Translations under genes and position numbers: made by a program
NCBI RefSeq assembly: GCF_004216565.1
Contig: NZ_SGWV01000008.1
Coordinates: 682,001 to 746,000, forward strand
Reading direction: 5' to 3'
DNA length: 64,000 nucleotides
From: Sphaerotilus mobilis
GTDB taxonomy: Bacteria > Pseudomonadota > Gammaproteobacteria > Burkholderiales > Burkholderiaceae_C
Part shown: one piece after another, positions 491 through 29,645 of the stretch
Layout of the letters: every line of letters starts with the position of its first letter
Numbering within the stretch: position 1 is the stretch's first letter
The notes under the pieces: generated by a model
What the model was told of the DNA's origin: nothing
What the model saw: only the letters and a program-made list of their open reading frames with translations
Database searches by the model: none

Positions 491-1114
491 ATGCGATACC
501 CCCCCTCACAAGGCCTGCGCCGCCGCTTCTGCGCCGCCCTGCTCGGCCTCGCCACGGTCTTCGCCGCACAGGCAGCCGACACCACCGAAACCGAGACACC
601 CATCCTCAAGTCCGGTCAGATCCTCGAAGCCCTGCGAGGCAAGGACATCGTGCTCGACACCGCGGGTGCGGGCGTTCGTCCAGGCGCCACGCCGCGCGCG
701 GCGGGCCGGCGCGATCCTGCGGTGCATCTGCAGGTGCGCTTCACCTTCGACTCGGCCGAACTGCTGCCCCAAGGCAAGCGCCAACTCGACGAACTGGCCA
801 TGGCATTGGGCGACCGTGCCCTCGCACGGTGGGGCTTCCTGCTGGCGGGCCACACGGACCGGGTCGGCGCCGCCGACTACAACGTGCAACTCAGCCTGGC
901 GCGGGCCGAATCCGTCAAGGCCTACCTGGTCGAAGCCCATCGCATCGATGCCCAGCGGCTGCAGACGCTGGGCTACGGCTATGCCCGCCCGATCGATGCG
1001 CAGCTACCCAATGCCGCCATCAACCGCCGGGTCGAGGTGCGCCGCATCGCCTTGCCGCCTGCCCAGCCAGCCGCGCCGGAGACCGGTGGGCGGCTGGTGC
1101 CCACGCCCCGATGA
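491..1114 (+). CDS. OmpA-family peptidoglycan-associated protein
   Basis: The 207-residue protein starts with a Sec signal peptide (hydrophobic stretch about residues 13-28, ending AAQA). An OmpA C-terminal domain covers about residues 78-188, with FTFDSAELLPQGKRQLDELA, then LAGHTDRVG and a final NRRVEVRRI. These are the characteristic peptidoglycan-binding segments of the OmpA/Pal/MotB family. There is no beta-barrel, so the protein probably sits in the periplasm and binds the cell wall non-covalently. It lies in a same-strand run with the lipoprotein at 1155 and a second OmpA-type protein at 1694, which suggests a shared transcript. Confidence 0.85.
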   Translation: MRYPPSQGLRRRFCAALLGLATVFAAQAADTTETETPILKSGQILEALRGKDIVLDTAGAGVRPGATPRAAGRRDPAVHLQVRFTFDSAELLPQGKRQLDELAMALGDRALARWGFLLAGHTDRVGAADYNVQLSLARAESVKAYLVEAHRIDAQRLQTLGYGYARPIDAQLPNAAINRRVEVRRIALPPAQPAAPETGGRLVPTPR

Positions 1115-2368: not shown

Positions 2369-2641
2369 TGCCCAAGCCACCGCCTGAACGCCGCCGATGC
2401 CGATGCAACGGCTCCGCCGCACGTGTCCCGGACACGCGCGGCGTTGGCGTTGCTGGCGAGCCCTGCCGGGCCGGTGCGGACGGCGGGAGCGCAAGTCATC
2501 TGACGCGCCGCTCTGGGTTTCGTCCCCTGGTGCATGTCATGCAACACCCTTTCCCACGACTGGCCCCTCGGGCCGGTCTTCGCCGCGCCGCTGCCTGCAG
2601 CGGCGCATCGATCGACGGTCCTTCGACGACGAGCGTTCGCC

Positions 2642-3271
2642 GTGGCTGAAAACCCCTCCAAATCACGCCCCGGGCAGGCCGATGCCCAGCAGGCCGCCGA
2701 ATGGGCCCAGCAGGGCGCTGCCGGTCGCAACCGTGCCGCCGCCCTGCTGCTCGATACCTGGTTGCGCCGGCTGATCGCCTACCTGGCCTACCACGGCCGG
2801 GTGGCCGAGGCCACCGCCGAAGACCTGGCCGCCGAGAGCATCACGGATTTCGTGCTCAAGCCGCAGCCGCGCGACTGCCCGGCCGACGTCTGGCTGATGA
2901 CCATCGCCCGCAACAAGCTGATCGACCATGCCCGCGAGAAGAACGCTGCCAAGCGGGGCGGCGGCAAGGCCGAGCAGGCGCTCGACGAGGACGATCTGCT
3001 GGAACTGCTCGACACGGGTCACGGCCACAGCGAGATGCCGGCCTGGGTGCGCCGATGCGTGCACCTGGCCGCCGCCGAGATGCAGCGCACCGAACCGCGC
3101 CATGCCGAGGTCCTGCGCATGGCCTGCGAAGGCTGGAGCGCCGAGGAGGTGGCCGTGCACTTCGGCGCGCCTGCGGATGCCGTGACCGACAAGCACAAGG
3201 CCGCCGCACGCGACCGCATCTACCGCGCGGTGCTGATCGCACGCGAGATGTTCGCCCCGTGCAAGGAGTGA
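2642..3271 (+). CDS. ECF-type RNA polymerase sigma factor
   Basis: About 209 residues from GTG 2642; the frame is open further upstream, so the start is uncertain. Region 2-like helices include LRRLIAYLAYHGRVAEATAE and DVWLMTIARNKLIDHAREKN, the second being the typical ECF region 2.4 pattern. A region 4 helix-turn-helix follows (RHAEVLRMACEGWSAEEVAV). The stop codon overlaps the Shine-Dalgarno sequence of the downstream gene, which encodes a single-span membrane protein with the layout of an anti-sigma factor. The pair probably controls the envelope genes around it; no promoter motif could be confirmed. Confidence 0.8.
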   Translation: MAENPSKSRPGQADAQQAAEWAQQGAAGRNRAAALLLDTWLRRLIAYLAYHGRVAEATAEDLAAESITDFVLKPQPRDCPADVWLMTIARNKLIDHAREKNAAKRGGGKAEQALDEDDLLELLDTGHGHSEMPAWVRRCVHLAAAEMQRTEPRHAEVLRMACEGWSAEEVAVHFGAPADAVTDKHKAAARDRIYRAVLIAREMFAPCKE

Positions 3272-3275
3272 CACG

Positions 3276-4052
3276 ATGAACTTCCCCCATCCCCCTTCCG
3301 ATCCGAAAGCTGGCCCGCCAGGACGAGACGATGACCGCTGGCTCGAGGTGCTGTCCGGTCAACGCGAGGCCGACGACAGCGACACCCGTCAGGCGGCGCA
3401 ACTGCGCGACTACTTCCACCTGCAGGCATCCCACCAGCCCCAGCCTGACGAGGCCGCGAAACGCCGCGTGGCCAACCTGGTTGCCGCTCGGCTGGCAAGT
3501 GCCGAAGCCAAGGTCGCGGCAACGGCCACCGGCCCAGCGAACGCACCGGTCAGCCTCTGGCAGCGTCTGCGTGACCTGCTGCTGCCGCCGGGCCAGGGAC
3601 ACGGCGGGCGCTGGGCTGCCGTGGCGGCCGTGGCCATGGCCGTGACGGTTGGACCATTCCTGCTGCAGCCCGATTCAGAACCTGCGGAGCCCGATGCACC
3701 GGTGGTCAAGCAAGCGCCGGTGATCAAGGACGCGCCGGTTCAGGTCTTGCCCACCGAGAAAGGAAAGGCGACCGAGAAAGACGCGATCACGCTGCGCCGA
3801 GAGCGGCTGCCGGCGCCATCGGCCGAGACGGTTCTGCGCGTCGCCGATCCGAAGGCTGAAGCCGTGCGACTGCTGCAGGCGCTGGCCGCCACCGGCGCCG
3901 CTGCGCAGGTCATGCAAGACGGCCCGGCGACGCTGATCGTGCTGCGCGTGCCCGCCGCATCGGTCCCGGCTGCCCGTGCTGTGCTGGGCCCGGAAGGGAT
4001 CTCCCTGCCTGACGATGGTCAGGCTGTGGTGCGCCTGTTGCCGCGACCCTGA
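3276..4052 (+). CDS. Probable anti-sigma factor (single transmembrane segment)
   Basis: A 258-residue protein with a soluble, charged N-terminal half of about 105 residues, one hydrophobic segment (about 109-130, AAVAAVAMAVTVGPFLL) and an extracytoplasmic C-terminal half rich in Pro, Val and Lys. This is the architecture of ECF anti-sigma factors. A Zn-binding HxxxCxxC motif is not visible, so it would be a non-ZAS type. It starts four bases after the sigma factor stop with AAGGAG placed over that stop, which implies coupled translation. The assignment rests on context and topology rather than a recognised domain. Confidence 0.65.
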   Translation: MNFPHPPSDPKAGPPGRDDDRWLEVLSGQREADDSDTRQAAQLRDYFHLQASHQPQPDEAAKRRVANLVAARLASAEAKVAATATGPANAPVSLWQRLRDLLLPPGQGHGGRWAAVAAVAMAVTVGPFLLQPDSEPAEPDAPVVKQAPVIKDAPVQVLPTEKGKATEKDAITLRRERLPAPSAETVLRVADPKAEAVRLLQALAATGAAAQVMQDGPATLIVLRVPAASVPAARAVLGPEGISLPDDGQAVVRLLPRP

Positions 4053-4107
4053 AGCCGTCCGATCGACCAGCCACAACCGTCTTTCCGTCAACCGACGAGC
4101 TCAGACC

Positions 4108-5889
4108 ATGACCTCGAGACCTGCCCACCGATCGGCCGTGCCGTTGACATCCTCACAGGCCGCACCACGGCGCAACAGGCTGGCGGGCCTGGGCCTGGCC
4201 AGCCTGCTGGTGCTGGGGACCTGCGGCCTGCTGCCGCAAACCGCCATGGCCAAGCGACTGGCGCTGCTGGTGGGCGTGTCGCACTACGACAAGCTGCCGC
4301 AGTCCCGCCTCGAAGGGCCGGTGCACGACGTCGCCGCGCTGCGCGACGTCCTGCAGCGACGCTGGGGCTACGCGCCGGCCGACGTGGTCACGCTGGTTGA
4401 CCGGCAAGCCAGCCGCGCCGCGATCCTGCGCGAACTCGCGGCGCTGCAGCAGCGCAGCCAGCCCGGCGACGAGGTGCTGATCTACTTCTCCGGCCACGGC
4501 ACCAGCGCACTCGACACCCAGAACCAACTGCCGGTGCCGCATGGCAGCGGTGCCTTCATGCCCGCCGACCTCGACCCCACACGGGGCGGCGACATGGGTC
4601 TGCTGATCGGGCGCACCCATCTGCGACCGGCGCTGCAGGCGCTTGACGACGGCGGGCGGAAGGTCTGGGTGATTTCCGACTCCTGCTACGCGGGTCAGCA
4701 GGTCCGTTCCGTCGCGACGGAATCAACGGCACTGCCTGCCCGGATGGTTCCCTTGCTGGCGGGCCAAGCCCTGCAGGAGCTCGATCAGGCACAGAAGCTC
4801 GGCGCGGATGCCCAAACGCCGGAGCCCTATCCCTACCAGTCGGTGGCCTACCTGGCCGCATCGGCCGAGGGCGAAACCGCCCGTGACATCCCGGCCAAGG
4901 CCCTGCATCAGATGCCCACACGCGACGGCAAGCCGCATGGCGCCCTCACCGATGCATTGCTGCGTGTGCTCGAAGGCGAGCTGCCGGCCGATGCCGACGG
5001 CGACGGCCTGCTCAGTCTGGCCGAGGTCCATCGCGGCGTCTCCGACTTCATGAGCCAGCGCGCCTACGGTCACAGCCCGCAACGCCTGCCGGCCGTGGTC
5101 GACGACCGCCGTGCCCTCGGCCAGCGCGCCGTGCTGACACAACGCGGCATGGCAGCCCCGGTACGGGCGAATGCGGCACGTCAGCCGCTGCGCGTGCATC
5201 TTTGGCCCTCACTCAAGCCGCGACAGTCCGAACTGGGCGGCGTGCCCGACCTGCAGATGGGCGTGCCGCCGACCGAGGCCGATCTGGTCCTGCGCCCCGC
5301 GCTTGGGGGCAAGGTGGTGCTCAGCGCCCGATCCGGTGACGTGCTGGCCGTGGCCGAGCCCGATGGTCTGGCAGACCTTCGCGGCACGCTGCTCCAGCTG
5401 AGTTACGCCAAGCGCCTGCATGCATGGGCTCAGGCCCATCGCCGTGCGGTGCTGCCCGCCGAGATCGAGCCGGCCACGTTCGGCGGCAACTTCGTCGACG
5501 GGCAGTCATTGCGCTTCGCGCTGCGACCCGACCGCGCGGCCACCTTGCTGCTGCTCAACATCGATGCCACGGGCCGCGTCAGCGTGCTCTACCCCGCCCA
5601 TGCCGGCGAGATGCAGCCGCTCGCCGCTGGCGATTTACGCCGGATTCCCGGCGAAGGTCCGACCCAGGCCCTGAAGGTGCAGGCGCCCTACGGCATGGAC
5701 GTGCAGCACCTGTTCGCCTTCGACAGCCCGCCAGCGGGCCTGGACCGGTTGGTGAACGCGCAAGGGCTCGCACCCGACGACGCCCGACTCGCGGCGCTCG
5801 AACGCACGCTGCAACAGATGCACGGCGCCTTCAGCCATGCCAGCACCGAGCTGCGCACCCACCCCCGTCCGGCGGAACGCAAGCCATGA
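4108..5889 (+). CDS. Exported caspase-family (C14/orthocaspase) protein with EF-hand loop and DUF4384 domain
   Basis: 593 residues. A long signal peptide (hydrophobic about 28-45, ending AMA) precedes a p20-like caspase fold that opens with KRLALLVGVSHYD. The catalytic dyad is intact: His130 in YFSGHGTS and Cys193 in ISDSCYAGQ. A canonical EF-hand loop lies at residues 295-306 (DADGDGLLSLAE), so calcium may regulate it, as in calcium-dependent metacaspases. The last third (about 460-560) looks like a DUF4384 domain (LRFALRPDRAATLLLL). The stop overlaps the ATG of the next caspase gene (ATGA). Family knowledge predicts cleavage after Arg or Lys; the substrate is unknown. Confidence 0.88.
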   Translation: MTSRPAHRSAVPLTSSQAAPRRNRLAGLGLASLLVLGTCGLLPQTAMAKRLALLVGVSHYDKLPQSRLEGPVHDVAALRDVLQRRWGYAPADVVTLVDRQASRAAILRELAALQQRSQPGDEVLIYFSGHGTSALDTQNQLPVPHGSGAFMPADLDPTRGGDMGLLIGRTHLRPALQALDDGGRKVWVISDSCYAGQQVRSVATESTALPARMVPLLAGQALQELDQAQKLGADAQTPEPYPYQSVAYLAASAEGETARDIPAKALHQMPTRDGKPHGALTDALLRVLEGELPADADGDGLLSLAEVHRGVSDFMSQRAYGHSPQRLPAVVDDRRALGQRAVLTQRGMAAPVRANAARQPLRVHLWPSLKPRQSELGGVPDLQMGVPPTEADLVLRPALGGKVVLSARSGDVLAVAEPDGLADLRGTLLQLSYAKRLHAWAQAHRRAVLPAEIEPATFGGNFVDGQSLRFALRPDRAATLLLLNIDATGRVSVLYPAHAGEMQPLAAGDLRRIPGEGPTQALKVQAPYGMDVQHLFAFDSPPAGLDRLVNAQGLAPDDARLAALERTLQQMHGAFSHASTELRTHPRPAERKP

Positions 5890-7625
5890 GCCATCTCGCC
5901 CACCTGATGCGCACATTCCTGCTCGCGCTGTGCACCCTGATCTGCGCCCTGCTGGGTGTCAGCGCCGCCCAGGCCCAGACAGCAGCGCCCAAACGTGTCG
6001 CCCTGCTGATCGGCAACGCCGACTACCAGACCGAGAACAAGCTGCGCAACCCCGTCCGCGATGCCGAACTGCTTGCCGGCGTGCTCAAGGACAAGCTCAG
6101 GTTCTCCGACGTGAGGATCGAACGCAACCTGGGCATCGCCGCCATGGACCGCGTGATCGACGACTTCATCCAGCTCGCCAGAGGCGCCGATTCGGTGGTC
6201 TTCTACTACTCCGGCCATGGCATGAAGCGTGCGGCCGACGATCGGCGCAACTTCCTGCTGCCGGTGGATGCCTCGGTGGGCCGACCGGGCTCTCTGGATG
6301 TGGAGCGTCAGGCCGTGGATGCGCAGCGCTTGCGCGACCGCCTGAAGTCCCTGGGCGCTCGTGTCACCCTGCTGATCCTTGACGCCTGCCGCAACGGGCC
6401 GGTGGGCAGCAAGAGCGGCGACAAGGGTCTCGCTCGCATGGGCGGCAGCAACCAGCTGCTGGTGGCCTACGCCACCGAGGAAGACCAGGTCGCCGCCGAC
6501 GGCTCCGGCACGAACAGCCCCTACGCCCGCGCGCTGGCACTCGCCCTGCAGCGGCCCGAGCCTTTGCTGCAGCAACTCGACTGGGTCGCCGACGAGGTCG
6601 AGAAGGAAGTCCCCGGCCAGAAGCCGACCCGCGACGGCAACCTGCGTGCCACCGCCTGGCTGGGCAGTCCGTTCGCGCCGGTCACACCGGACAACCGCGT
6701 GTCCATCGAGGACGAAGCCTGGGCCCTGTGCCGCAGCGCGAGCGGCAGTGCCGTGGCGTGTGAAGACTACCTCAGTGCCTATCCACAAGGCCGCTACCTG
6801 CCGCTGGCCCGCACGAGGCTGCGTGAACTTCGGGAAACGCAGCCAGCCCCCCAACGCCCTTCGCCACCCACGGTGTCGACGGTTGCGGCGGGCCAGGTGG
6901 TGAAGGACTGCGACGTGTGTCCAGAGCTTGTGGTGATACCGGGGGGCAGTTTTGTGATGGGCTTGTCGGCGAGTGAAACGGGCCGAGCCTCAGATGAACG
7001 TCCGCAGCGTGCGGTGGCGGTGAAGGGGTTCTTGCTGGGCAAGTACGAGGTAACGCAGGGGGAATGGAAGGCGGTGATGGGAAGCAACCCGAGCGGGTTC
7101 AAGGACTGCGGAGACCGTTGTCCGGTGGAGGAGGTGAGCTGGAACGAGGTTCAGGAATACCTCAAGAGGCTGAACGCGAAGAGCGGGAAGGCGTACCGGC
7201 TGGCGAGTGAGGCGGAATGGGAGTACGCGGCAAGGGCGGGCACGACAACACCGTTCAGCACGGGGCAGACGATCACGGCGGCGCAAGCGAACTTCGACGG
7301 TAATTACACGTACAACGGCGGTCCGAAGGGCGAATACCGGAGCAAGACCGTAACGGTGGGAAGTTTCGGAGCCAATATCTTCGGCTTGCACGACATGCAT
7401 GGCAATGTCTGGGAATGGGTGCAGGACGCTTGGCATGACAACTACAGCGGTGCGCCTAGCGATGGCAGCGCGTGGATGAATGGGGGTGATCAGTCCCGGC
7501 GTGTTCTGCGTGGCGGGTCCTGGAGCAGCACCCCGCATAGGTTGCGCTCCGCTAGCCGCTTCTTTGACGCCCCAGACGACCGCAGCGAGACGGTCGGTTT
7601 CCGTGTGGCCAGGACCGATTTTTAG
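5886..7625 (+). CDS. Exported caspase-FGE fusion (peptidase C14 plus sulfatase-modifying-factor domain)
   Basis: 579 residues: signal peptide ending AQAQ, caspase domain starting KRVALLIGNADYQ, catalytic His111 (YYSGHGMK) and Cys168 (LILDACRNG), then a linker and an FGE/SUMF1-type domain from about residue 345 (CPELVVIPGGSFVMG) to the end (LHDMHGNVWEW, RVLRGGSW, GFRVA). FGE domains have a C-type-lectin-like fold and often bind ligands rather than act as enzymes. From about base 6900 codon use shifts (many GGG, GCG, ACG, AGT, TTG and GTA codons) compared with the caspase half, which suggests the FGE module was acquired separately. The last 40 residues look like a diversity-generating-retroelement variable region (separate entry). 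Confidence 0.87.
   Translation: MSHLAHLMRTFLLALCTLICALLGVSAAQAQTAAPKRVALLIGNADYQTENKLRNPVRDAELLAGVLKDKLRFSDVRIERNLGIAAMDRVIDDFIQLARGADSVVFYYSGHGMKRAADDRRNFLLPVDASVGRPGSLDVERQAVDAQRLRDRLKSLGARVTLLILDACRNGPVGSKSGDKGLARMGGSNQLLVAYATEEDQVAADGSGTNSPYARALALALQRPEPLLQQLDWVADEVEKEVPGQKPTRDGNLRATAWLGSPFAPVTPDNRVSIEDEAWALCRSASGSAVACEDYLSAYPQGRYLPLARTRLRELRETQPAPQRPSPPTVSTVAAGQVVKDCDVCPELVVIPGGSFVMGLSASETGRASDERPQRAVAVKGFLLGKYEVTQGEWKAVMGSNPSGFKDCGDRCPVEEVSWNEVQEYLKRLNAKSGKAYRLASEAEWEYAARAGTTTPFSTGQTITAAQANFDGNYTYNGGPKGEYRSKTVTVGSFGANIFGLHDMHGNVWEWVQDAWHDNYSGAPSDGSAWMNGGDQSRRVLRGGSWSSTPHRLRSASRFFDAPDDRSETVGFRVARTDF
7501..7625 (+). other. Candidate DGR-type variable region at the 3' end of the caspase-FGE gene
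   Basis: The FGE C-terminus is the usual site of adenine-directed mutagenesis in diversity-generating retroelements (DGRs). Here the RVLRGGSW...GFRVA frame is kept. At the positions that are usually Asn (AAC) in template repeats, the codons are AGC, AGC, ACC, CAT, AGC, TTC, TTT, GAC, GAC and AGC, all of NNY type. That is the pattern expected when A residues of AAC codons are randomised. No reverse transcriptase, Avd gene or matching template repeat was seen in this window, so any active retroelement would be elsewhere or lost. Confidence 0.35.
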
Positions 7626-7826: not shown

Positions 7827-9266
7827 ATGAGCACTCGCCCGCATTCCTCCCGCCGCGTCCGCACGGCGACCTCTCATGCCTTGCACCGTTTCGCGGTCAC
7901 GGCACTCGCCTTGGTTGGCCTGGGCCTCACGGTCAGCGCCCATGCGGAGAACCATGCCCTGATCCTGTGGATCGGCAACTACGCGCAGCCCAGCGCCAAC
8001 CTGCCCGGCATCGACAAGGACGCGGCGATGGCCCGCCAGCTCGCCCGTGCGATGGGTGTGCCCGACAAGAACATCCGTGAGCTCAGCAATGCCGCACTGG
8101 CCAAGACCAGCATGGGCAACGAGCTGCGCAACCTGACCACGCGCATCGCCAAGGACGACAAGGTCTTCATCTACTACTCCGGCCACGGCGCACAGGTCAA
8201 GGGCTTGGGGGGTGCCAAGTGCACCGAGGGCATGGTCACCCATGAGATCGACATCTACACGGACGTCCAGCTGCAGCAGGTCCTCACCGACCTTGGCAAC
8301 AAGGCCAGCCAGGTGGTGATGTTCAACGACTCCTGCTTCTCGGGCGGCGCGGCCACCAAGGCCTCGCGTGACCTCACTGGCCCGTCCGACGCCCCGGTGC
8401 CGAAGTTCTACAGCGGCCCGCTGCCGCAAGGCACGGGCGTCAACGACGACTACACCTGCGGCGAACAGGTCAACAAGATGTCGCGCAACCTCGAGGTGGT
8501 GGCCGCCGCGCCGCGTGCGCCCCAGGTGCTCTACGTGGCCGCCTCTGCAGCCAACGAGGTGTCCTTTGCCACGACCAAGGGCAGCGCCGGCACGCTGGCG
8601 TGGCTGTCATGCATCGGCAGTGCCGACAGCAACCGCAGCGGTGCGGTCGACGCCGAGGAGCTGCGCGCCTGCGCGCAGCAGTGGCTCGATCGCGGCAAGT
8701 TCGACCAGCACATCACCCTGGCGGGCAACACCAAGCTGCCGCTGACCTTCGTGAGCAACACGCCCGCAGGCAGCGGCAACGCCCCCGTCAATGCGGCCCG
8801 TGCGCTGGAAGACCTGCGCGCGACGGCCGACCCGGCGCATGCCGTCACGCTGAGTCCGGTGCGTGGCACGCTCAAGATCGGCCAGGACCCGCTGGACTTC
8901 AGCATCACCACGACCCAGCCCGGCTACCTCTATGTGCTGCACGTGGGCAGCGACGGCAAGACCTTTGACCTGCTGTTCCCGAACAAGCAGGACAGCAACA
9001 ACTACGTCGCCGCCGGCAACCACAGCTTCCCGCGCCCGAGCTGGCGCATCAAGGCCAGCGGCCCGGCTGGCACCAGCTATCTGATGGCGGTCGTCTCTCC
9101 GGTTCAACGCAACTTCAACAAGGACATGGACCTGGGCAGCGTCTTCCCCCAAAGCAATGCCACGACCGACAGCGCCAAGAACCTGGTCATCGAGACCACG
9201 GGCGCAGCCGGCGCCGGCGCACGCTTTGGCGCCAGCGCGGTGGTGGCGATCCGCGAATCGAATTGA
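7827..9266 (+). CDS. Exported caspase-family protein with EF-hand loop and DUF4384 domain
   Basis: 479 residues from ATG 7827, which opens a signal peptide ending SAHA. The caspase fold begins NHALILWIGNYAQP, with His120 in YYSGHGAQ and Cys170 in MFNDSCFSGG. An EF-hand-like loop (DSNRSGAVDAEE, residues 267-278) sits at the end of the protease part, at the same relative place as in the homologue at 4108. The C-terminal DUF4384 domain (about 345-440, GYLYVLHVGSDGKTFDLLFP) is close in wording to the lipoprotein at 1155. It is probably a periplasmic or surface cysteine protease, possibly calcium-activated. The gene stands alone between intergenic gaps of about 200 and 95 bases. Confidence 0.88.
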   Translation: MSTRPHSSRRVRTATSHALHRFAVTALALVGLGLTVSAHAENHALILWIGNYAQPSANLPGIDKDAAMARQLARAMGVPDKNIRELSNAALAKTSMGNELRNLTTRIAKDDKVFIYYSGHGAQVKGLGGAKCTEGMVTHEIDIYTDVQLQQVLTDLGNKASQVVMFNDSCFSGGAATKASRDLTGPSDAPVPKFYSGPLPQGTGVNDDYTCGEQVNKMSRNLEVVAAAPRAPQVLYVAASAANEVSFATTKGSAGTLAWLSCIGSADSNRSGAVDAEELRACAQQWLDRGKFDQHITLAGNTKLPLTFVSNTPAGSGNAPVNAARALEDLRATADPAHAVTLSPVRGTLKIGQDPLDFSITTTQPGYLYVLHVGSDGKTFDLLFPNKQDSNNYVAAGNHSFPRPSWRIKASGPAGTSYLMAVVSPVQRNFNKDMDLGSVFPQSNATTDSAKNLVIETTGAAGAGARFGASAVVAIRESN

Positions 9267-9360
9267 CGCCAGTCGGGCGGCGCCCGTGTGCATGCCGCAC
9301 GCGCACGTGGCCCGCATCGGTGCGACAGACCGGTCCTTCCGGTCGCCCCCAGGAGATTCC

Positions 9361-10863
9361 ATGTTTGCTGTCCCTTGTCGCCACGGCGTCGGCCCCCTGC
9401 CACGCCTGCGCCCTTTGAATGCCGCCGTCCTGGCCCTCGGCCTGAGCGCTGCCTTGTGCCTGCCGGCGGCTGCTGAGGGGCCTGCTCCGGCCCTCGATGC
9501 AGGCTCTGCCAGCACATCGCCCGCCGCTTCGGGCCACGCTGCTTCGGCTGTTGCTTCAACGGCTGCTTCAACTGCTGCTTCAACCGCTGCTTCGACTGCC
9601 GCTTCCGCCGTCAAGGACGTGACGGTCGACCGCGCACCTGCGGACCCCGCCGCCGCGAGCCGCCCCGCAGCCACATCGGCCAGCGCGACGCTGCTGAGCA
9701 CGCCCCTGCACGATGGCGCGCTGGCCGCCGCACTCGACGACCTGGGCCTTGCCCTGCTTCGTGACCTCAGTGCCAAGGGCGGCCAAGGCCAAGCCAATGC
9801 GGTGACGTCACCCTTGTCCCTGGCCGTGAGCCTGGGCCTCTTGCATGCCGGAACGGCCAGTGCCGGTGCCGATGAACTGGCGCGTGCCGTGGGGGGCACC
9901 GCGTCCGGCACGCGACTGCTCACGACCCGGCTGCCAGCCCAGTTGGCCCGGGCCCTGGACAGCAGCCGGGCCGGCAGTCCCTTGACGATGGCCAACCGCG
10001 TCTGGCTCGACAAGAGCGTCGTGCGCGCCGTGCCAGCCAGCTATGCCGCCGCCGTCTCGCAGCGCTACCAGGCCGATGGCATCGTGCTGCCGCTGGCCAG
10101 TGACCCGCGCGGCGCACGCCAGACGATCAACGCCTGGGTGTCGCAAGCAACGGCGCGACGCATCCCCGATCTCCTGCCCGAGGGCGCCATCAAGGGCAAC
10201 TCGCGTGTCGTGCTGACCAGCGCGATGCACTTCAAGGGCCGATGGAGCCAGGCCTTCGACCCCGCAGCGACGTCGACCCAAACCTTCGAGGCCGCGCCCG
10301 GACGCAGCGTTCGTGTGCCGACGATGAGCGGCGAACGCATGGTGCGGGCCGGCACGGTCGACAACCTCAACGTGATCGAACTGCCCTTTGACGGGGACTA
10401 CGCCTTGATCGTGGCCATGCCGCCGGCTGGACACACGCTGCAGGCGCTGGAAACCGAGCTGGAAGGTCTGGACATGGCCTCCTGGAGCAGCCAGCTGCGC
10501 CCGTTGCGCTGCACCGTGACGCTGCCCCGCTTCAGCATCGCGCCGACGGCCCGATCGCTCAAGGCAGCGCTGGTCGGCCTGGGAGTGCGCCAGGTCTTCA
10601 GCTCGGCGGCCGATCTCGGGCCGCTGCTGGGCAAGGCGGGCAAGGGCGTCCAGGTCGACGACGTGTTCCAGAGCGCCGGCATCACCATCGATGAGCAGGG
10701 GGGTGAAGCGGCGGCGGCCACCGGCGCCACCGTGTCGGCCAAGTCCATCACCCTGGGCGCGCCGAGCTGCGCGGTCAACCGGGCCTTTGTCTTCAGCCTC
10801 GTGCACAAGCCCACGGGGCTGCCGCTGTTCGTGGGCAAGGTGAGCGACCCCAGCAAGCGCTGA
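9361..10863 (+). CDS. Secreted inhibitory-type serpin
   Basis: 500 residues. The N-terminus is a signal peptide (ending PAAA), followed by a low-complexity linker with repeated AAST units (about residues 60-80). The serpin fold follows, with NAVTSPLSLAVSLGLLHAGT, TINAWVSQAT, LTSAMHFKGRW and a C-terminal AFVFSLVHKPTGLPLFVGKV. The reactive-centre hinge is the inhibitory type: Glu445 (P17), then QGGEAAAATGA. Counting from P17 puts P1 at Lys461 and P1' at Ser462. A Lys P1 fits trypsin-like or metacaspase/orthocaspase targets. Serpins are uncommon in Proteobacteria, and this one lies among six caspase homologues, so inhibition of those proteases is a reasonable inference. Confidence 0.9.
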   Translation: MFAVPCRHGVGPLPRLRPLNAAVLALGLSAALCLPAAAEGPAPALDAGSASTSPAASGHAASAVASTAASTAASTAASTAASAVKDVTVDRAPADPAAASRPAATSASATLLSTPLHDGALAAALDDLGLALLRDLSAKGGQGQANAVTSPLSLAVSLGLLHAGTASAGADELARAVGGTASGTRLLTTRLPAQLARALDSSRAGSPLTMANRVWLDKSVVRAVPASYAAAVSQRYQADGIVLPLASDPRGARQTINAWVSQATARRIPDLLPEGAIKGNSRVVLTSAMHFKGRWSQAFDPAATSTQTFEAAPGRSVRVPTMSGERMVRAGTVDNLNVIELPFDGDYALIVAMPPAGHTLQALETELEGLDMASWSSQLRPLRCTVTLPRFSIAPTARSLKAALVGLGVRQVFSSAADLGPLLGKAGKGVQVDDVFQSAGITIDEQGGEAAAATGATVSAKSITLGAPSCAVNRAFVFSLVHKPTGLPLFVGKVSDPSKR

Positions 10864-12055: not shown

Positions 12056-12103
12056 GGTCAGTGTCGAAGGTCGGCCACCACCGAGCGCCGCTTCATGAAT
12101 AGG

Positions 12104-12144
12104 ACCGCCCCCGCCGTGTCGGTCGACACCAAGGCGGGGGCGGT
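12104..12144 (+). terminator. Long GC-rich hairpin, probable terminator
   Basis: ACCGCCCCCGCC and GGCGGGGGCGGT form a perfect 12-bp stem. Inside it GTGTCG/CGACAC forms a further 6-bp stem around a GT turn, with two unpaired bases. There is no clear T-run on either side, so it may be a factor-dependent or bidirectional terminator, or an RNA stability element. The surrounding gap (12056-12367) otherwise holds only the ribosome-binding site AGGAGA of the next gene. Confidence 0.6.
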
Positions 12145-12367
12145 GGACCTTCTCCAACACGGACGGTATCCATCGTTGCATCGCCCGACGATCTCGGGCG
12201 ACATCCGTCTCGCATTGCAAGACCGCTTCACCGCCGAAAACGGCACGGCAAGCCGCGCGTCAGACCACACGAACGGGGGGTGCGCCAGGCCCTTACGCAT
12301 GCCATTGCCCCCCTACCATCAAATCGACATCGGGCTCAGAGATCGCCCGGTCAAGCAGGAGAACCCC

Positions 12368-14095
12368 ATGCATCCATCCGGCCGAGGCACCTCTGCAGGT
12401 GAAGGGGCTGCCCTGAGGCATTGGCGATCACATCGGGCTCTGGCATGGCTGACGCTGGCGTGCCTGCTGCTGGCCATGCTGCCGGTTCATGCCGCACCTG
12501 AGGGCAAGCGCGTGGCGCTGCTCATCGGCAACAGCAACTACGCCGTGGGTCCCTTGCGCAACCCGGCAAACGATGTGCGTGAGATGGAAGCCTCGCTGCT
12601 GTCGCTGGGCTTTCAGGTTCGCAAGGTGATGGACACCGACCAGAACCAGCTCAAGCGTGCGATCCGCGACTTCGGGAACGACGCCAAGGGCGCGGCCGTC
12701 GCCTTGTTCTACTACAGCGGGCACGGCATCCAGTCCGGCGGTGAGAACTACCTGATTCCCTTGCGCGCCAGCATCGACAAGGAATCGGACTACGACGTCG
12801 AAGCCGTCTCGGTCAGCAGCGCCCTGCGCCAGATCGCCGGCGCCCGTCCGGATGTGACCCTGCTCGTGCTGGATGCCTGCCGGGACAATCCACTGGCCTC
12901 AGTGACGCGCAGCGGTACCAAAGGCCTGGGGCGCATGGATGCGCCCACCGGCACCGCAATTGCCTTCGCCACGGCACCCAACACGACGGCGGCCGACAGC
13001 GGCCTGTTTGCCCGCGTGCTGGCGGCGGAACTGCGCAAGCCGGGCCAGGAGCTGTTCGATGCCCTTCGGAACACCACCGCGGTCGTCAAGCGAGAGACCG
13101 GTGGCCGCCAGGAACCTCGTGTGAGCGAGTGGTCGATCACCGACCGCGTTTTTCTGGCAGGCACGACACAGGCCATTGGGACATCACCGGACGTTGGACC
13201 AGGAAGCCGCCATGCAGCGGCGCCCGCGCCCGCAACAGCGATGGCTGTCCCGGCAACATCGATCCCGGTCGTTCGAGCTGACGCGACCTGTCAAGGCTGT
13301 CCAGCCATGGTGGTGATTCCCGCCGGCAGCTTCCAGATGGGCTCGACATCCGACGAGGAAGGTCGATCAGGTGACGAAGGCCCGTTGCGCACCGTGACGT
13401 TTGCGCAACCCCTGGCGGTCAGCAAAAACCTGGTGACCCGAGGCGAATTTGCCGAATTCGTGAATGCGACCGGCCACAGAACAGACGCCGAGCTTGGCGG
13501 CGGATGCCGCTACTTCCTGGAAGGTCGCTGGCAGACCAACACGGGACAGTCCTGGCGGTCACTGATGTTCGCCCAGACGAACGACCATCCGGTGACGTGC
13601 GTGAGCTGGCATGACGCGGTGCAGTACACCTTGTGGCTGAACGCCCGCAGCGCCTTGAAGGGCTGGCGCCTGCCGAGCGAGGCGGAGTGGGAATACGCCG
13701 CCCGTGCCGGGACTCGCACAACCTATCCCTGGGGCCAGCTGGCCGATCGAGCCATGGCCAATTACGGCAGGGACACCTGTTGCGGCCCGCTGGCTGCGGG
13801 CGCGGACGAATGGGAGTTCACGTCGCCGGTGGGACACTTTCCTGCCAACGCCTGGGGTCTGCACGACATGAGCGGCAACCTTTGGCAGTGGGTCCAAGAT
13901 GTCTGGCACGACAACTACCACGGAGCGCCTGTCGATGGCAGCGCATGGCTCAAAGACGGAAGTCCCACCGAACGGGTCGTGCGAGGAGGCTCATGGGGAA
14001 GCAACATGCGTTCACTGCGCACAGCCGATCGCAACAAGTATGTCTCGACCGAGGCTTTTCCCATCGTGGGCTTCCGTGTGGTCAGGCAGCCGTGA
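12368..14095 (+). CDS. Exported caspase-FGE fusion protein
   Basis: 575 residues; AGGAGA sits 6 bases before the ATG. The signal peptide (about 24-43, ending VHAA) precedes a caspase domain (GKRVALLIGNSNYAVGPLRN) with His119 in YYSGHGIQ and Cys171 in LVLDACRDNP. A Pro/Ala-rich linker leads to a C-terminal FGE domain (CPAMVVIPAGSFQMGS, LPSEAEWEYAARAGTRTTYP, LHDMSGNLWQW, GFRVVRQP). Its layout matches the fusion at 5886, but codon use is uniform across the whole gene. Its C-terminus (MRSLRTADRNKYVSTEAF) does not show the NNY hypervariable pattern. It converges on the minus-strand caspase gene at 14148. Confidence 0.88.
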   Translation: MHPSGRGTSAGEGAALRHWRSHRALAWLTLACLLLAMLPVHAAPEGKRVALLIGNSNYAVGPLRNPANDVREMEASLLSLGFQVRKVMDTDQNQLKRAIRDFGNDAKGAAVALFYYSGHGIQSGGENYLIPLRASIDKESDYDVEAVSVSSALRQIAGARPDVTLLVLDACRDNPLASVTRSGTKGLGRMDAPTGTAIAFATAPNTTAADSGLFARVLAAELRKPGQELFDALRNTTAVVKRETGGRQEPRVSEWSITDRVFLAGTTQAIGTSPDVGPGSRHAAAPAPATAMAVPATSIPVVRADATCQGCPAMVVIPAGSFQMGSTSDEEGRSGDEGPLRTVTFAQPLAVSKNLVTRGEFAEFVNATGHRTDAELGGGCRYFLEGRWQTNTGQSWRSLMFAQTNDHPVTCVSWHDAVQYTLWLNARSALKGWRLPSEAEWEYAARAGTRTTYPWGQLADRAMANYGRDTCCGPLAAGADEWEFTSPVGHFPANAWGLHDMSGNLWQWVQDVWHDNYHGAPVDGSAWLKDGSPTERVVRGGSWGSNMRSLRTADRNKYVSTEAFPIVGFRVVRQP

Positions 14096-14147: not shown

Positions 14148-15836
14148 TCATCGACCTGCGCCGTTGACTGGCATGTTCATCGAGTCCCCGTCAAACACGG
14201 ACTGAATCGCATGTCGACATGCCGTTGAACTCATGCGAGACCACTGGTCATTGAGCATTTCATCCTCGCCAAGCTGACCACGTTCGATCTCACTGGCGCA
14301 TGCCGAGGTGACGGGCGCAGACCGGCTGCTGATGCGTCGTTGTCCGGTCGAGAGACTTTGCACGTAGACCAAGGGGCTGCCCGTCTCGAACGACACGTAG
14401 GCCAGCATGGCGTTGCGCTCATCGGTGGCATCAGGTCGTGACCAGGTGGGCAACATCAGCGGCTTGGCACTGACAACCGCGAGTCGGCTTCCACCGCCGT
14501 CGATGTCACTGACCGACAAGGCATGGCGCATGTCAAAGACAGACACCCGAGCGACCCGGCGCTGGAAGTCACTGCGGCGCTGGGTCACGGCTTCAAAGAC
14601 GAGATCCGAAACCTGAAAAGCGACTCTGCGCAGGTCCACCACGGCAGCGCTCGACGCCTTGGCGAGGACCTCCCGCGCGGAAGCCACTTGCCAGACGCGC
14701 ATGCGCACCTCAAGACGGCCATCGTCCAGAACTGCCACGTCGCCCAACACGAGATGACTGTAGCCCTGGGCCCTGGCTCGGATCCAATCGGGCCTCGCAG
14801 CACTGCCGCCCGGCTGGTCATCCACGCGAGTGACATCGAGCCGACCTCTTTGTTCTAGCGTCTGGAGAACCACCTGCGCCAGGCGCAGCGCGTGACCACC
14901 GATACGATCCTCGAACGACACGCCCACCCGCAGTGCCACATCGGGGGCCAGGTTCAAGTTGGCCGTCGGCACCGCTGTCGCGACAGACGGTGCTGACGTC
15001 TGCACCGCGACCTGCGAAGGTGGCCCTGCCAGGTAGTGAGCCCCACGCAGGCCAATATCCTCACGCGGACGCTGCTTGCCGCCGGACTCCTTCTCCACCG
15101 CCAGGGCCGTTTCCTCAAAGACCTGCCGGATGTCCAGCCGTCTTTGAACCAGGAATCGGGCAAGGTGCTTGGTGTAAAGCCCGTTGTTGCCTTCGCCATC
15201 GTCAGCCACAGCGCCAGGCTGAGCTGAATAGGCCACGATGCTGCCAGTGGGCACATCCATGCGAGCCAGGCCCCGAGAAAGACTGCGCAAGCGGCTGAAG
15301 AAAGGGTTGTTGCGGCAGGCATCCAGCACGACAAGTGCAATCCTCGGACTTGCAGCCTCGATCTGTTGGAGCAGCGTGCTGGCAGCGATCGCTTCGCCGG
15401 CGACATCGGCCTGTTTACCGATGTCCGCGTCCACGGGCACCAGCCAGTTTTCATTGCCCAGTTGCATGCCATGGCCAGCGTAGTAGACCAGGGCCACATC
15501 GGCGCCCTGGGCACGATCACCGAACTCGCGCACAGCACGGTGCAGACGCCGAAAGTCGGCGTTCTCCACACGTTCAACATCAAAGCCCAAGGTCTTGAGT
15601 GTTGCTTCCATCAAGCGGGCATCGTTGACCGGATTGGCCAGCCTCCCCTCGCGATAGGCAGCATTGCCGATCACCAGTGCGACTCGCTTTCCAGTGGCCA
15701 TGGCCTGAGCCCCCGCCTGTGGAACCATCAGACCCAGCAAAAGGACCCAGGTGAAGATCCAAAGACCGTGGGTCGCCCGCCATCGCACAGGCTCTCGCGC
15801 GACGGGCCATGCGGCGGAATGGTTGTCGAGCGACAT
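14148..15836 (-). CDS. Exported caspase-family protein with C-terminal TolB-N-like region
   Basis: 562 residues from the ATG at 15836, chosen because GGAG lies 7 bases upstream; an in-frame ATG at 15872 adds 12 residues. A signal/anchor helix (FTWVLLLGLMVPQAGAQA) precedes the caspase domain (GKRVALVIGNAAYREGRLAN), with His122 in VYYAGHGMQ and Cys174 in VVLDACRNNP. The C-terminal part (about 280-470) has features of the N-terminal domain of TolB-like proteins (VGVSFEDRIGGHALRLAQV, a stretch on DVAVLDDGRLEVRMRVW). It follows the gene at 15895 by 58 bases on the same strand, so the two may form an operon. Confidence 0.85.
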   Translation of the reverse strand: MSLDNHSAAWPVAREPVRWRATHGLWIFTWVLLLGLMVPQAGAQAMATGKRVALVIGNAAYREGRLANPVNDARLMEATLKTLGFDVERVENADFRRLHRAVREFGDRAQGADVALVYYAGHGMQLGNENWLVPVDADIGKQADVAGEAIAASTLLQQIEAASPRIALVVLDACRNNPFFSRLRSLSRGLARMDVPTGSIVAYSAQPGAVADDGEGNNGLYTKHLARFLVQRRLDIRQVFEETALAVEKESGGKQRPREDIGLRGAHYLAGPPSQVAVQTSAPSVATAVPTANLNLAPDVALRVGVSFEDRIGGHALRLAQVVLQTLEQRGRLDVTRVDDQPGGSAARPDWIRARAQGYSHLVLGDVAVLDDGRLEVRMRVWQVASAREVLAKASSAAVVDLRRVAFQVSDLVFEAVTQRRSDFQRRVARVSVFDMRHALSVSDIDGGGSRLAVVSAKPLMLPTWSRPDATDERNAMLAYVSFETGSPLVYVQSLSTGQRRISSRSAPVTSACASEIERGQLGEDEMLNDQWSRMSSTACRHAIQSVFDGDSMNMPVNGAGR

Positions 15837-15894
15837 GGAATGACTCCGAGATCGGTAGATCGCCACCGGCATGAGCGCCGAGGAACACAGGTCC

Positions 15895-20500: not shown

Positions 20501-22063
20501 ATGAAACTCGCGAAAAGGGTTTCAAGGCCACAGTTTCAACGCCGCGCGTTTCTGACGTTCCTGAGCACGCCTGTTTGGACGCCCTTGCTGACCGCCCTGC
20601 CGACATCAGCGGCGTCATCGGTTGAAGGGCGCACGCTGAGAACTGACCAAGTGACGATCCTGTACCGGCCGCTTGGCAAGGATGCGCCGTCACCACACGA
20701 TCCAATCGTGCAGTCATCCGTCCGGCAATTGGAACGGGAGTTCATCGCGAGAGGTTTGAAAGTACAGCAGCCGTCTGCGCAACTCTATCGGTTGATGGCT
20801 CAGGGCGACGGCGTCGTGGTGACCTTCGCATCCGATGCTGGCTATTCGCTGGTTTTCTCGATCTACCGGAATCTTCGTCCGGTTCCTCAGCAAGAAGGCG
20901 CCATTGCCGAAGTGCGACTCGAGTCCCGCACCATCGTTGGTCGGCATGTCCTGTCAGCTGAATCTTCTCGCGGACAAATGTTCACACGCACGGATGCTGG
21001 CCTACAGGAGTTCGGTGCCAGACGCGCCTTTGAACTGGCAACGGAGAAAGCGGCAAGCGAACTCGCAGACAAGACTTTCCAGATCCTAAAAGCCATGACC
21101 ACCGAGCGCTTGGCTGACCTGCTGGGACCTGACGAGGGACTGCGCACAGATGCCGAACTGGTCGGACTGCCCGACACTTCTCCAGCGTCGACGTCCATGC
21201 TGTCCGAGACAACAACCGTCCAACCGACTGAAGGTTCCGGCAACGCCAGATTGCCCACACCAAAGAGAAAGTGGGCCATCTTGGTCGGAATGTCGAACTA
21301 CTCGTCTGTTCGAACCGCTGGAGTTCCTGGCATCAAGGATCTGCCAGGTGTCTCCAAAGACATCCAGCAAATCAGAGCCACGCTTCCAGAACTCGGCTTC
21401 GACATGCGGGACGTGACCACCCTAAAGGACGCAGATGCCACCAGCGGGGCTCTCCGCAGTGCACTCAAGCGCTTGGCTGGCCTTGTAGCGGCAGACGATC
21501 TGGTGATGGTCTATATCTCAGCCCATGGTGCAGACAAGGATTTCAGTGCATCCGGCTTCGGTATGCCGATCTTGGCGGATTTCCGCCCCAACGACCCGAA
21601 TTCGCTGGACTTTTGGGAATTGCAGAGCCTGACACGAAACCTACAGGGTCAAGTGGTTTGGATCAGCGACACCTGTCACTCAGGTGGTGCGGCAACCAAC
21701 ATCTCAAGCGTGGTCATCGGAGGTCAGGAGATTTCAACCGTCAAGGAGGTTCGAGGCCCTGACGCCTTATCAGTCGCCAGAGCAACGGCACAGGGACAGT
21801 CATTTGCGATCCTGACAGCCGCTGGCGCCAGGGAGATTTCCTGGGAAACCGGAGAAGGCGGACTGTTCACGACCCGTTTGTTGAACGCCCTAAAGGACAA
21901 CAAGGGTATGAAGCCCTTGTCCGAATTATTCTCGATACATGTTCGACCCACGGTCATCAAGGAATCAAAGACGATCTGCGAAAAATCTCGATCTTGCTCG
22001 ATGCACCCCCAGCAGACGCCCGTCATGGCATATGGCGGCTCGGGCAACCTCATCATTATCTAA
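20501..22063 (+). CDS. Caspase-family protein with N-terminal extension and possible Tat signal
   Basis: 520 residues. The N-terminus contains a twin-arginine-like motif (QRRAFLTFL) and a hydrophobic stretch, which suggests export by Tat. The first 250 residues are a separate domain (VTILYRPLGKDAP, then SSVRQLEREFIARGLKVQQ) with a TolB/FlgT-like alpha-beta pattern. The caspase domain starts near residue 262 (KRKWAILVGMSNYS), with His342 in YISAHGADKD and Cys392 in WISDTCHSGGA. Unlike its relatives, the protease part is C-terminal and there is no FGE or DUF4384 domain. It overlaps no neighbour but directly follows the lipoprotein at 19525. Confidence 0.85.
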   Translation: MKLAKRVSRPQFQRRAFLTFLSTPVWTPLLTALPTSAASSVEGRTLRTDQVTILYRPLGKDAPSPHDPIVQSSVRQLEREFIARGLKVQQPSAQLYRLMAQGDGVVVTFASDAGYSLVFSIYRNLRPVPQQEGAIAEVRLESRTIVGRHVLSAESSRGQMFTRTDAGLQEFGARRAFELATEKAASELADKTFQILKAMTTERLADLLGPDEGLRTDAELVGLPDTSPASTSMLSETTTVQPTEGSGNARLPTPKRKWAILVGMSNYSSVRTAGVPGIKDLPGVSKDIQQIRATLPELGFDMRDVTTLKDADATSGALRSALKRLAGLVAADDLVMVYISAHGADKDFSASGFGMPILADFRPNDPNSLDFWELQSLTRNLQGQVVWISDTCHSGGAATNISSVVIGGQEISTVKEVRGPDALSVARATAQGQSFAILTAAGAREISWETGEGGLFTTRLLNALKDNKGMKPLSELFSIHVRPTVIKESKTICEKSRSCSMHPQQTPVMAYGGSGNLIII

Positions 22064-28274: not shown

Positions 28275-29645
28275 TCACGCTGCGGAAGTGGACCGCTTCT
28301 TCGGCTTTCCTTGCCCCTCACGCCCCGCCGCCAACCTCTTCAACAACTCCCCCGCCGGCTCATCCGCCGGGTCCTGCGGCACCAGTTCCCCCCGGAACGC
28401 CTTCGCCAACAAGGCCGGCGTCAAACGCTCGGCGGCGGCCTGGGCGGACTTCAAGCGGGCTTCGAGGCGGTCGGCGTAGGCGAACAGGGATTCGACGCGG
28501 CGGACGATTTCGGTTTGTTCTTTCAAGGAGGGCAGCAAGAATTTAGTTGACTTGAGGTCAGTCCCGGAGATGCCTTTTTGCCCAGCGCTTGACTTGACGA
28601 AGTTTTCTACCTGATGTCGTGTTTGCGGTGCGCCAAAAACAATCTCAACATACCCAGGCAACACAACTATCGAGTCAACCCGCGCCCGAATAAGCTTGTC
28701 CGGATACACAATGCCCGGCTGATCGCAACGAACAACTGCGCAAACACCCACAAACTCAAGGCTTCCGTTGTAACGCGTGAAAAGTAAATCATCCTTTCGC
28801 AGTGAGTACTGATCTCTCGTTGGCAAATCAACTTCGAGATACCGATAATCCTCGAAGTTGACGGCACCCGATCTGACCGCACTTATTCGAAGAATCTTCG
28901 TGCCGAGAACATTTTCATCCGGCTTGGCTGAAAGCCCATTTCGCATCTCAAGCAGCACGGAACCCAAGGTTGATTCACGCCATGCGGTCAGAGCATCGAT
29001 GTCATCCCGCCACCCCTCCGTCAACCTCCCCGAAGTCGCCGCCGCCAACACCGCCTGCCGAAAGCGCTTGATCAAGGGCGCCACGCGATCCAGCCGTTCG
29101 CGGCAAGTGTCGACGCGGGCGAGAGTGGAGTCGATTTTGTCGGCAACGCGGGTTTGTTCGTTTGCTGGCGCAAGAGGAATGACAAGACGGCGAAGCTTGT
29201 CTTGCGAGATGTTGCGCATCGACAGTTGATTGCCAGATGAAGCCTCTTGTATTGCCTTTCGCACGCTTGCAGATTTAAGCGCATAGTTCACCCATCGTTT
29301 TGATGCATCAAGCACGAGCAATCTCAAGACCTTGTCACTCAGGTAGAGATCGCGCTTGACGTCATCCACGATCACAGCCGCACCGACCAATTCGATGGTG
29401 TTCGCCCTAGAAAATAGAAGGTCGCCGGGCTTGATTCGGTTTCGTTCATCAACCTTTTCATCCGAATGCAAAGTCTTGCTTTGCATTTCGTCGAACTTGC
29501 CCCACGTGACCGAACTGATCTTCACCAAACCTCGCTCACCGATACGAGGAGTCCGTTCTTCGCATTTGACGTTGAGCCCGGCCTCGATTCCGCGAATTAA
29601 CTGCCCAAGCTCGGCAAAGCACCAACCGTTTGGCAATTGATTCAT
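28275..29645 (-). CDS. hsdS: Type I restriction-modification specificity subunit HsdS
   Basis: 456 residues with two target-recognition domains of about 150 residues, each followed by a conserved helix: LAPANEQTRVADKIDSTLAR for the first, then LPSLKEQTEIVRRVESLFAY for the second. This is the classical two-half HsdS layout that sets the bipartite DNA target. The start overlaps the hsdM stop (ATGA), so translation is coupled. The long basic C-terminus (GKPKKRS) is common in this group. GC content within the recognition domains is lower than in the conserved parts, which is expected from recombination of specificity modules. Confidence 0.9.
   Translation of the reverse strand: MNQLPNGWCFAELGQLIRGIEAGLNVKCEERTPRIGERGLVKISSVTWGKFDEMQSKTLHSDEKVDERNRIKPGDLLFSRANTIELVGAAVIVDDVKRDLYLSDKVLRLLVLDASKRWVNYALKSASVRKAIQEASSGNQLSMRNISQDKLRRLVIPLAPANEQTRVADKIDSTLARVDTCRERLDRVAPLIKRFRQAVLAAATSGRLTEGWRDDIDALTAWRESTLGSVLLEMRNGLSAKPDENVLGTKILRISAVRSGAVNFEDYRYLEVDLPTRDQYSLRKDDLLFTRYNGSLEFVGVCAVVRCDQPGIVYPDKLIRARVDSIVVLPGYVEIVFGAPQTRHQVENFVKSSAGQKGISGTDLKSTKFLLPSLKEQTEIVRRVESLFAYADRLEARLKSAQAAAERLTPALLAKAFRGELVPQDPADEPAGELLKRLAAGREGQGKPKKRSTSAA

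Follow-up and report, generated by a model that had tools for sequence, protein, structure and literature searches.

Serpins are suicide inhibitors of proteases and are best known from animals and plants. Inhibitory serpins of the AtSerpin1 and CrSERPIN type carry a basic P1 residue (Arg), and the bacterial serpin miropin has Lys at a main P1. Inhibition of metacaspases by serpins is listed for AtMC9 and AtMC1 of Arabidopsis and for Chlamydomonas (Table 2 of PMC10609998), the pairs being AtSerpin1 with metacaspase 9 or metacaspase 1 and CrSERPIN with CrMCA-I, and the one paper found on a serpin and an orthocaspase, PMC10896300, concerns a green alga. The roles of prokaryotic serpins have been called enigmatic (PMC8233489). 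Miropin of Tannerella forsythia, a secreted bacterial serpin as the one described here would be, is held to protect against harm by serine proteases that are secreted; unlike the serpin described here it is broad-range, and no caspase-type partner gene is mentioned for it in the accessible text of the paper (PMC4404884). On the protease side, proteins composed of a trypsin domain, a pseudo-orthocaspase domain (QC dyad), and DUF4384 have been described from Alphaproteobacteria (PMC6426788), and a survey of metacaspase operons counted 14 operons with OmpA and 23 with proteolysis domains (PMC3501461). The word "serpin" is absent from the main text of both of these papers, and the supplementary operon table of PMC3501461 could list the Rhizobium operon considered below. 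No report of the protease-serpin gene pair described here was found in the literature searched, subscription papers and preprints lying outside its scope. The same holds for a serpin plus a caspase in Mesorhizobium, and judging by titles and the opening of abstracts, none of the Rhizobium leguminosarum serpin papers concerns the operon.

Here we describe a serpin gene that directly follows a gene for a metacaspase-like protease in a 64,000-nucleotide stretch of Sphaerotilus mobilis DNA (the window, meaning the whole stretch analyzed). As in the Arabidopsis and Chlamydomonas pairs, a serpin stands opposite a metacaspase-like protease predicted to cut after Lys or Arg, and metacaspase-9 is the best solved-structure sequence match of the window's protease. 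Unlike in the plant pairs, the two genes are adjacent and bacterial, both products look exported, and their complex is a prediction; to our knowledge, plant serpin and metacaspase genes do not form an operon. The window's protease differs from the published alphaproteobacterial fusions in having an active-type dyad and no trypsin domain.

The serpin gene and its genomic surroundings

The gene at 9361-10863 encodes a genuine full-length serpin (MEROPS I4). PF00079 matched residues 124 to 497 over profile positions 2 to 370 of 370 (249.8 bits; E = 6.6e-74), and a second match was absent from the 4.65-Mb genome, of which this serpin is the sole one. An AlphaFold2 model built from 13 sequences (the alignment took in 12 of the 16 further contig-derived serpin loci) reached a pLDDT of 82.9 and a pTM of 0.85; the pLDDT fell below 50 only in the five N-terminal residues and at residues 453 to 466, the reactive loop holding Lys461. 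The 50 PDB matches listed by Foldseek for this model were serpins, antithrombins foremost, as judged by description or known identity. The serpin domain is preceded by a putative Sec signal peptide (residues 1 to about 38, a hydrophobic stretch in front of the cleavage-like site) and an Ala/Ser/Thr-rich linker with a short repeat; this repeat is absent from the relative in genome G215. NCBIfam gave no family above its cut-off for the serpin or for the upstream caspase, PADLOC left the serpin without any match, and the single pattern match in viral contigs was not confirmed as a serpin.

The stop codon of the protease gene lies 94 bp upstream of the serpin, on the same strand, and an AGGAG ribosome-binding site stands ahead of the ATG at 9361 (Table 1). 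Between 7600 and 11100 no sigma-70-like site and no plus-strand terminator-like site were found, and the two genes are predicted to be co-transcribed. The protease scored 52.5 bits with PF00656, and its four PDB sequence matches (E up to 1) are all metacaspases: two metacaspase-9 entries (E = 1e-5 and 3.5e-5), metacaspase-4 (0.0065), and metacaspase-1 (0.61), to which its YYSGHG and NDSCFSGG motifs align. The His-Cys dyad is intact, as is the Asp two residues before the Cys, a position at which an acidic residue serves the S1 pocket for a basic P1; Asp occupies it in all seven aligned sequences of the caspase comparison. The enzyme would be expected to cut after Lys or Arg. The AlphaFold2 model of the protease (pLDDT 40) was discarded, and no fold or S1-pocket geometry is drawn from it. 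The original prediction had given signal peptides to the serpin and to the caspase homologues alike; by eye only, we recognized cleavage-like sites in the serpin (PAAA-E) and in the upstream caspase (AHA-E), and the latter is probably exported.

Table 1. Features of the serpin locus in the window and annotated records of the Rhizobium run
Feature	Sequence	Position	Strand	Basis
OmpA-family gene	window	491..1114	+	sequence analysis
ECF sigma factor upstream of caspase cluster	window	2534..3271	+	sequence analysis
C14 caspase + DUF4384 (listed ORF; actual start probably lies further inside)	window	3976..5889	+	Pfam
C14 caspase + FGE-sulfatase domain (listed ORF; actual start probably lies further inside)	window	5424..7625	+	Pfam
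C14 caspase (metacaspase-like) + DUF4384, probably exported, proposed partner	window	7827..9266	+	PF00656, PF14326
Intergenic stretch with AGGAG ribosome-binding site	window	9267..9360	+	sequence reading
Serpin, 500 aa	window	9361..10863	+	PF00079, PDB serpin matches, AF2 model, Foldseek
Reactive center loop, P17 (Glu445) to P1 (Lys461)	window	10693..10743	+	ungapped nexin alignment; Lys-Ser in 3/3
Predicted scissile bond Lys461-Ser462	window	10741..10746	+	hinge counting, nexin alignment, clade conservation
C14 caspase + FGE-sulfatase domain (ORF as listed)	window	12095..14095	+	Pfam
C14 caspase + TolB_N/TolB-like domain	window	14148..15872	-	Pfam, PDB matches
C14 caspase (DTCHSGG motif)	window	20501..22063	+	Pfam, motif
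Five-gene run, last gene Ser-Thr kinase	L079, Rhizobium acidisoli FH23 plasmid pRapFH23c	5431-15185		annotated record
Five-gene run, last gene Ser-Thr kinase	L084, R. johnstonii 3841 pRL11, RL_RS32735-RL_RS32715	2311-12056		annotated record

That the serpin sits amid six caspase homologues, as the original prediction held, was borne out by Pfam, which placed six C14 genes in the window (within 18 kb) and nine in the genome; seven of the nine lie within about 31 kb (G000:C2:672576-703979; G000 is the window's genome), with the ECF sigma factor and OmpA genes among them. All six window caspases keep the His-Cys dyad and an Asp at the second position before the Cys, and all match one generic caspase model of PADLOC. 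The PDB sequence search covered two of the five caspases other than the partner: the 14148-15872 protein matched the paracaspase MALT1 as its caspase-fold hit, and TolB as well, and the protein at 20501 matched nothing. An endogenous trypsin as target of the serpin found no support in this genome, where PF00089 gave four matches of 65 to 72 bits, one spanning profile positions 4 to 216; since the same search also matches in the Escherichia coli and Bacillus subtilis controls, these were presumed, as a group, to be HtrA-type proteases. Elsewhere in the window, a reading of the translation places HsdS-like specificity and HsdM-like methylase subunits of a type I restriction-modification system at 28275-31087 (minus strand).

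Distribution of the pair and its recurrence in Rhizobium

Serpins are rare around the window's genome: none was present in its 12 congeners, and they occurred in 2 of 349 family genomes (its own and G215), 2 of 399 order genomes (its own and G608), 7 of 398 phylum genomes (its own included), and 2 of 16 genomes in the genus of G215 (G215 and G1113). In all three serpin genomes found in the family (G000, G215, and G1113), the gene immediately before the serpin, in the same orientation, is a C14-DUF4384 orthologue. The intervening gap is 16 bp in G215 and is replaced by a stop/start overlap (TGATG) in G1113; the caspase orthologues of the three genomes are 50 to 65% identical, and the other C14 genes of G215 and G1113 are more than 600 kb away or on other contigs. 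Protease and serpin are also distributed together in the genus of G215, as close caspase orthologues (at least 63% identity) were found at E 1e-40 only in G215 and G1113; G1114 has a 35% homologue, and the other 13 genomes have none at this threshold. In the family, 5 of 299 genomes have a caspase orthologue (E up to 1e-60), and no serpin was found in three of the five (G030, G302, and G147, the last being 76% complete with a caspase contig of 3.6 kb). Serpin-less orthologues as dead enzymes were rejected, their dyads being intact, so the putative brake would be dispensable. In G030, six C14 matches, including the partner orthologue, follow one another on one strand without a serpin (L037 8757-19001).

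The protease-then-serpin order recurs in G785, which we infer to be a Rhizobium member. Serpins occur in 11 of the 40 genomes of its genus, and all eleven have the order DUF4384-OmpA protein, C14 protein, trypsin-C14-DUF4384 fusion, serpin, and protein kinase, with domains assigned by Pfam in G785 and by similarity to the G785 proteins in the other ten. Among PLSDB plasmids, the fusion was found in 88 records and the serpin in 89 (coverage of at least 80%); in all 54 records common to the best 60 matches of each, the serpin follows the fusion on the same strand after 82 to 97 bases, and the 12 records that appeared for one protein only were left unmatched. The fusion has an intact trypsin triad and DACQGDSGGP motif in all eleven genomes, the motif being that of basic-P1-type trypsins, and scores 185 to 188 bits with PF00089, compared with 61 to 72 bits for the four weak matches in each of G000, G215, and G1113. 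Its caspase His is replaced by Gln (GQG) in 11 of 11 (L039 6997-9750 and ten congeners); the stand-alone C14 protein of the run keeps its dyad in as many. Since the adjoining caspase domain has lost its His, the target of the Rhizobium serpin is probably the trypsin domain, and the catalytic domain seems to have been swapped, a dead caspase domain now having a trypsin domain in front.

In its His-to-Gln change and intact trypsin triad the Rhizobium fusion is like the proteins of PMC6426788; the serpin, kinase, and DUF4384-OmpA neighbors are an addition here, and the serpin partner seems to be unreported. OmpA domains are fused to DUF4384 in Rhizobium, encoded directly downstream of the serpin in G1113, and encoded about 8 kb upstream of it in the window, which suggests action at the cell envelope; none was seen at the G215 locus with a phmmer query that also missed the OmpA domain of G1113. 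In PADLOC, the fusion matched the caspase model and, weakly, LmuA, the kinase matched kinases of several systems, and the OmpA protein weakly matched ZorB. No complete known defense system was found among the matches of these three proteins, the window caspases, and the serpin.

We then considered how often a C14 gene adjoins a serpin elsewhere. A PF00656 search of 11 serpin genomes found such a neighbor in four (G000, G215, G1113, and G785) and not in seven; two of the seven genomes lack C14 genes altogether. In the remaining loci, C14 was sought with a profile of the window's six caspase domains. It was absent from the sequence covered at 16 further contig-derived serpin loci; several of these contigs are only a few kilobases long and L025 begins at the serpin, so at some of them a C14 neighbor could be out of view. 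It was also absent from four plasmid loci (Novosphingobium, Sphingomonas, Porphyrobacter, and Haladaptatus) drawn from 19 non-Rhizobium records. The survey for serpin-orthocaspase neighbors that had been proposed with the original prediction thus returned adjacency in 3 of 3 family genomes and 11 of 11 Rhizobium genomes, and 27 other serpin loci without a neighboring C14 gene in the sequence covered. Two of the loci are worth recording in their own right. The genome G1170 (Rhizobium family) has 14 C14 genes and, on contig C34 (L069), a serpin with Arg-Ser at the P1 column, the nearest C14 gene being about 13 kb off on that contig, and in the Porphyrobacter sp. YT40 plasmid (L082 4270-17074) the serpin lies in a long same-strand run of mostly hypothetical genes without a caspase match, possibly a serpin operon.

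At an assumed density of 0.95 genes per kb and with the window's lineage included, chance adjacency in at least 4 of 11 genomes has a probability of about 9e-9, and in at least 2 of 8 lineages of about 2e-4. With the window's lineage, which was chosen for the feature, removed, one of seven lineages (Rhizobium) is left and the figure becomes about 0.02; the independent support is thus one lineage besides the window's. In a tree of 28 serpins (L009, L012, L025, L027, L029, and eight of the eleven Rhizobium serpins were left out), the Rhizobium serpins are widely separated from the clade of the window's serpin. Two changes of the label "caspase-linked" are required on this tree, and 0% of 200 bootstrap trees need only one; if only branches with strong support are counted, two origins are not compelled. 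A stronger argument than these figures is persistence, the pair having been kept between genera at 46% serpin identity and throughout the Rhizobium serpin genomes.

The same distribution bears on a different role, in which the serpin guards the cell from foreign trypsin-like proteases of predators, competitors, or hosts and came to lie beside a caspase gene by joint transfer within an envelope-stress or secreted-protease locus. The sporadic occurrence of serpins in the family would fit such a role, Lys at P1 suits many trypsin-like targets, and several characterized bacterial serpins (siropins and the Bifidobacterium serpins) act on host proteases, as stated in PMC8233489. We nevertheless regard it as unlikely because two separate clades of serpins adjoin a gene of C14-DUF4384 type, and in view of the maintenance of that adjacency across genera with divergent serpins, and the overlap of the two genes in G1113.

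The reactive center loop

The hinge of the window's serpin reads E445-Q-G-G-E-A-A-A-A453 (P17 to P9), with Gly at P15 and small residues from P12 to P9, and the prediction that it is of the inhibitory type holds. The small residues at P12 to P9 are present in all three clade members. At P14 the window's serpin has Gly, which is less usual in serpin hinges than Thr or Ser, and the G1113 serpin has Ala; the G215 serpin has Val at P13. The P1 call rests on more than counting, since in an HMMER alignment without gaps from the hinge onward A-K-S of the window's serpin lies over A-R-S of glia-derived nexin (4dy0), the Arg of which we take to be P1, and the same columns hold V-K-S and L-K-S in the G215 and G1113 relatives. 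Lys-Ser is thus kept at P1-P1' in three of three, despite an identity of no more than 46% between the window's serpin and either of the other two. Lys461-Ser462, put forward in the original prediction by counting from P17, remains the best call for the scissile bond.

The Rhizobium serpin has E-R-S in this part of the loop in all eleven genomes, and its loop is one residue shorter than the window's. Such shorter loops, with Arg at P1, are found in alpha-2-antiplasmin and C1 inhibitor. Exceptional conservation of the Rhizobium loop was not apparent, the identity over P8 to P5' being 87% compared with 83% for the whole protein. The loop comparison drew on 47 rows, including repeats and fragments, among which are 23 distinct loci without caspase linkage (the N-terminal piece of L029 left out and the G779 fragment kept), and in 5 of these 23 the P1 or P2 column likewise holds a basic residue. 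With two linked lineages set against these five loci, a basic P1 is no more than suggestive of caspase linkage.

In a rival reading the serpin would be mainly a substrate, the caspase cutting Lys461-Ser462 and the cleaved, relaxed form acting as a signal or scaffold with no lasting inhibition. A matching site beside a matching protease is equally expected in that case, serpins often behave as substrates of cysteine proteases, and the residues at P14 in the window and G1113 and at P13 in G215 depart from the canonical hinge. The small P12 to P9 residues throughout the clade and the overall inhibitory type of the hinge speak against it, and we consider it quite improbable.

A candidate protease-inhibitor module

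On balance, and only just, we consider it probable that the serpin acts as a cognate brake on its upstream neighbor, the metacaspase-like protease, which would be exported and cut after Lys or Arg. From the gene order, the conservation of the pair, the intact catalytic residues, the inhibitory-type hinge, and the conserved basic P1, we infer that the serpin inhibits this partner. The protease (7827-9266) and the serpin would share one transcript and reach the cell envelope through Sec export, and there the protease, cutting after Lys or Arg, would attack the serpin loop at Lys461-Ser462. The cut loop would then insert into sheet A and the protease would be trapped as an acyl-enzyme, as in AtSerpin1 with plant metacaspase 9. 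Common to both lineages is a probably exported DUF4384 protease that is predicted to be specific for Lys/Arg, with a serpin gene behind it whose product has a basic residue in front of Ser, and the simplest reading of this arrangement would be a protease with its own suicide inhibitor. The recurrence of the layout, Rhizobium included, suggests that the bacteria concerned possess a built-in brake on such proteases.

The original prediction of a metacaspase-serpin pair is partly supported, and may need to be narrowed in one respect and widened in another. Its core is supported by adjacency and Lys-Ser in three of three, by the co-distribution in one genus, and by the recurrence in Rhizobium; among the six caspases the evidence singles out one as the partner, namely the C14-DUF4384 protease whose gene immediately precedes the serpin. 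That the serpin instead controls a different endogenous protease of the envelope (one of the other caspases or an HtrA- or subtilisin-type enzyme) would fit the six C14 genes with intact dyad and Asp within 18 kb and the inhibition of endogenous subtilisins by Pnserpin and Tkserpin mentioned in PMC8233489, but we give it little credence, as only the C14-DUF4384 orthologue adjoins the serpin in G215 and G1113. The target class may be "Lys/Arg-cutting exported protease" and not strictly caspase, because the protease domain that is intact next to the Rhizobium serpin is of the trypsin type and is joined to a His-less caspase domain.

A broader reading, which we offer tentatively and hold to be possible rather than probable, is that of a self-contained envelope proteolysis module in which an exported Lys/Arg-specific DUF4384 protease is combined with a cell-wall anchor of OmpA type and with a serpin, encoded alongside, that acts as its suicide brake. 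Such a module, with a caspase-type protease here and a trypsin-type protease with a dead caspase domain in Rhizobium, would have been assembled at least twice and would correspond in bacteria to the circuits that proteases and serpins form in animals and plants. It may serve controlled lysis, envelope remodeling, or defense against predators.

With this conserved gene pair, a prokaryotic serpin has a candidate cognate target, and one that is directly testable; Rhizobium johnstonii 3841, a genetically tractable symbiont, holds the five-gene run (RL_RS32735 to RL_RS32715), in which RL_RS32725 is the trypsin fusion and RL_RS32720 the serpin. If the proposed pairing is true, the control of metacaspase-type proteases by serpins, which is known in plants and in a green alga, would extend to bacteria, and the finding would bear on how bacteria restrain their caspase homologues.
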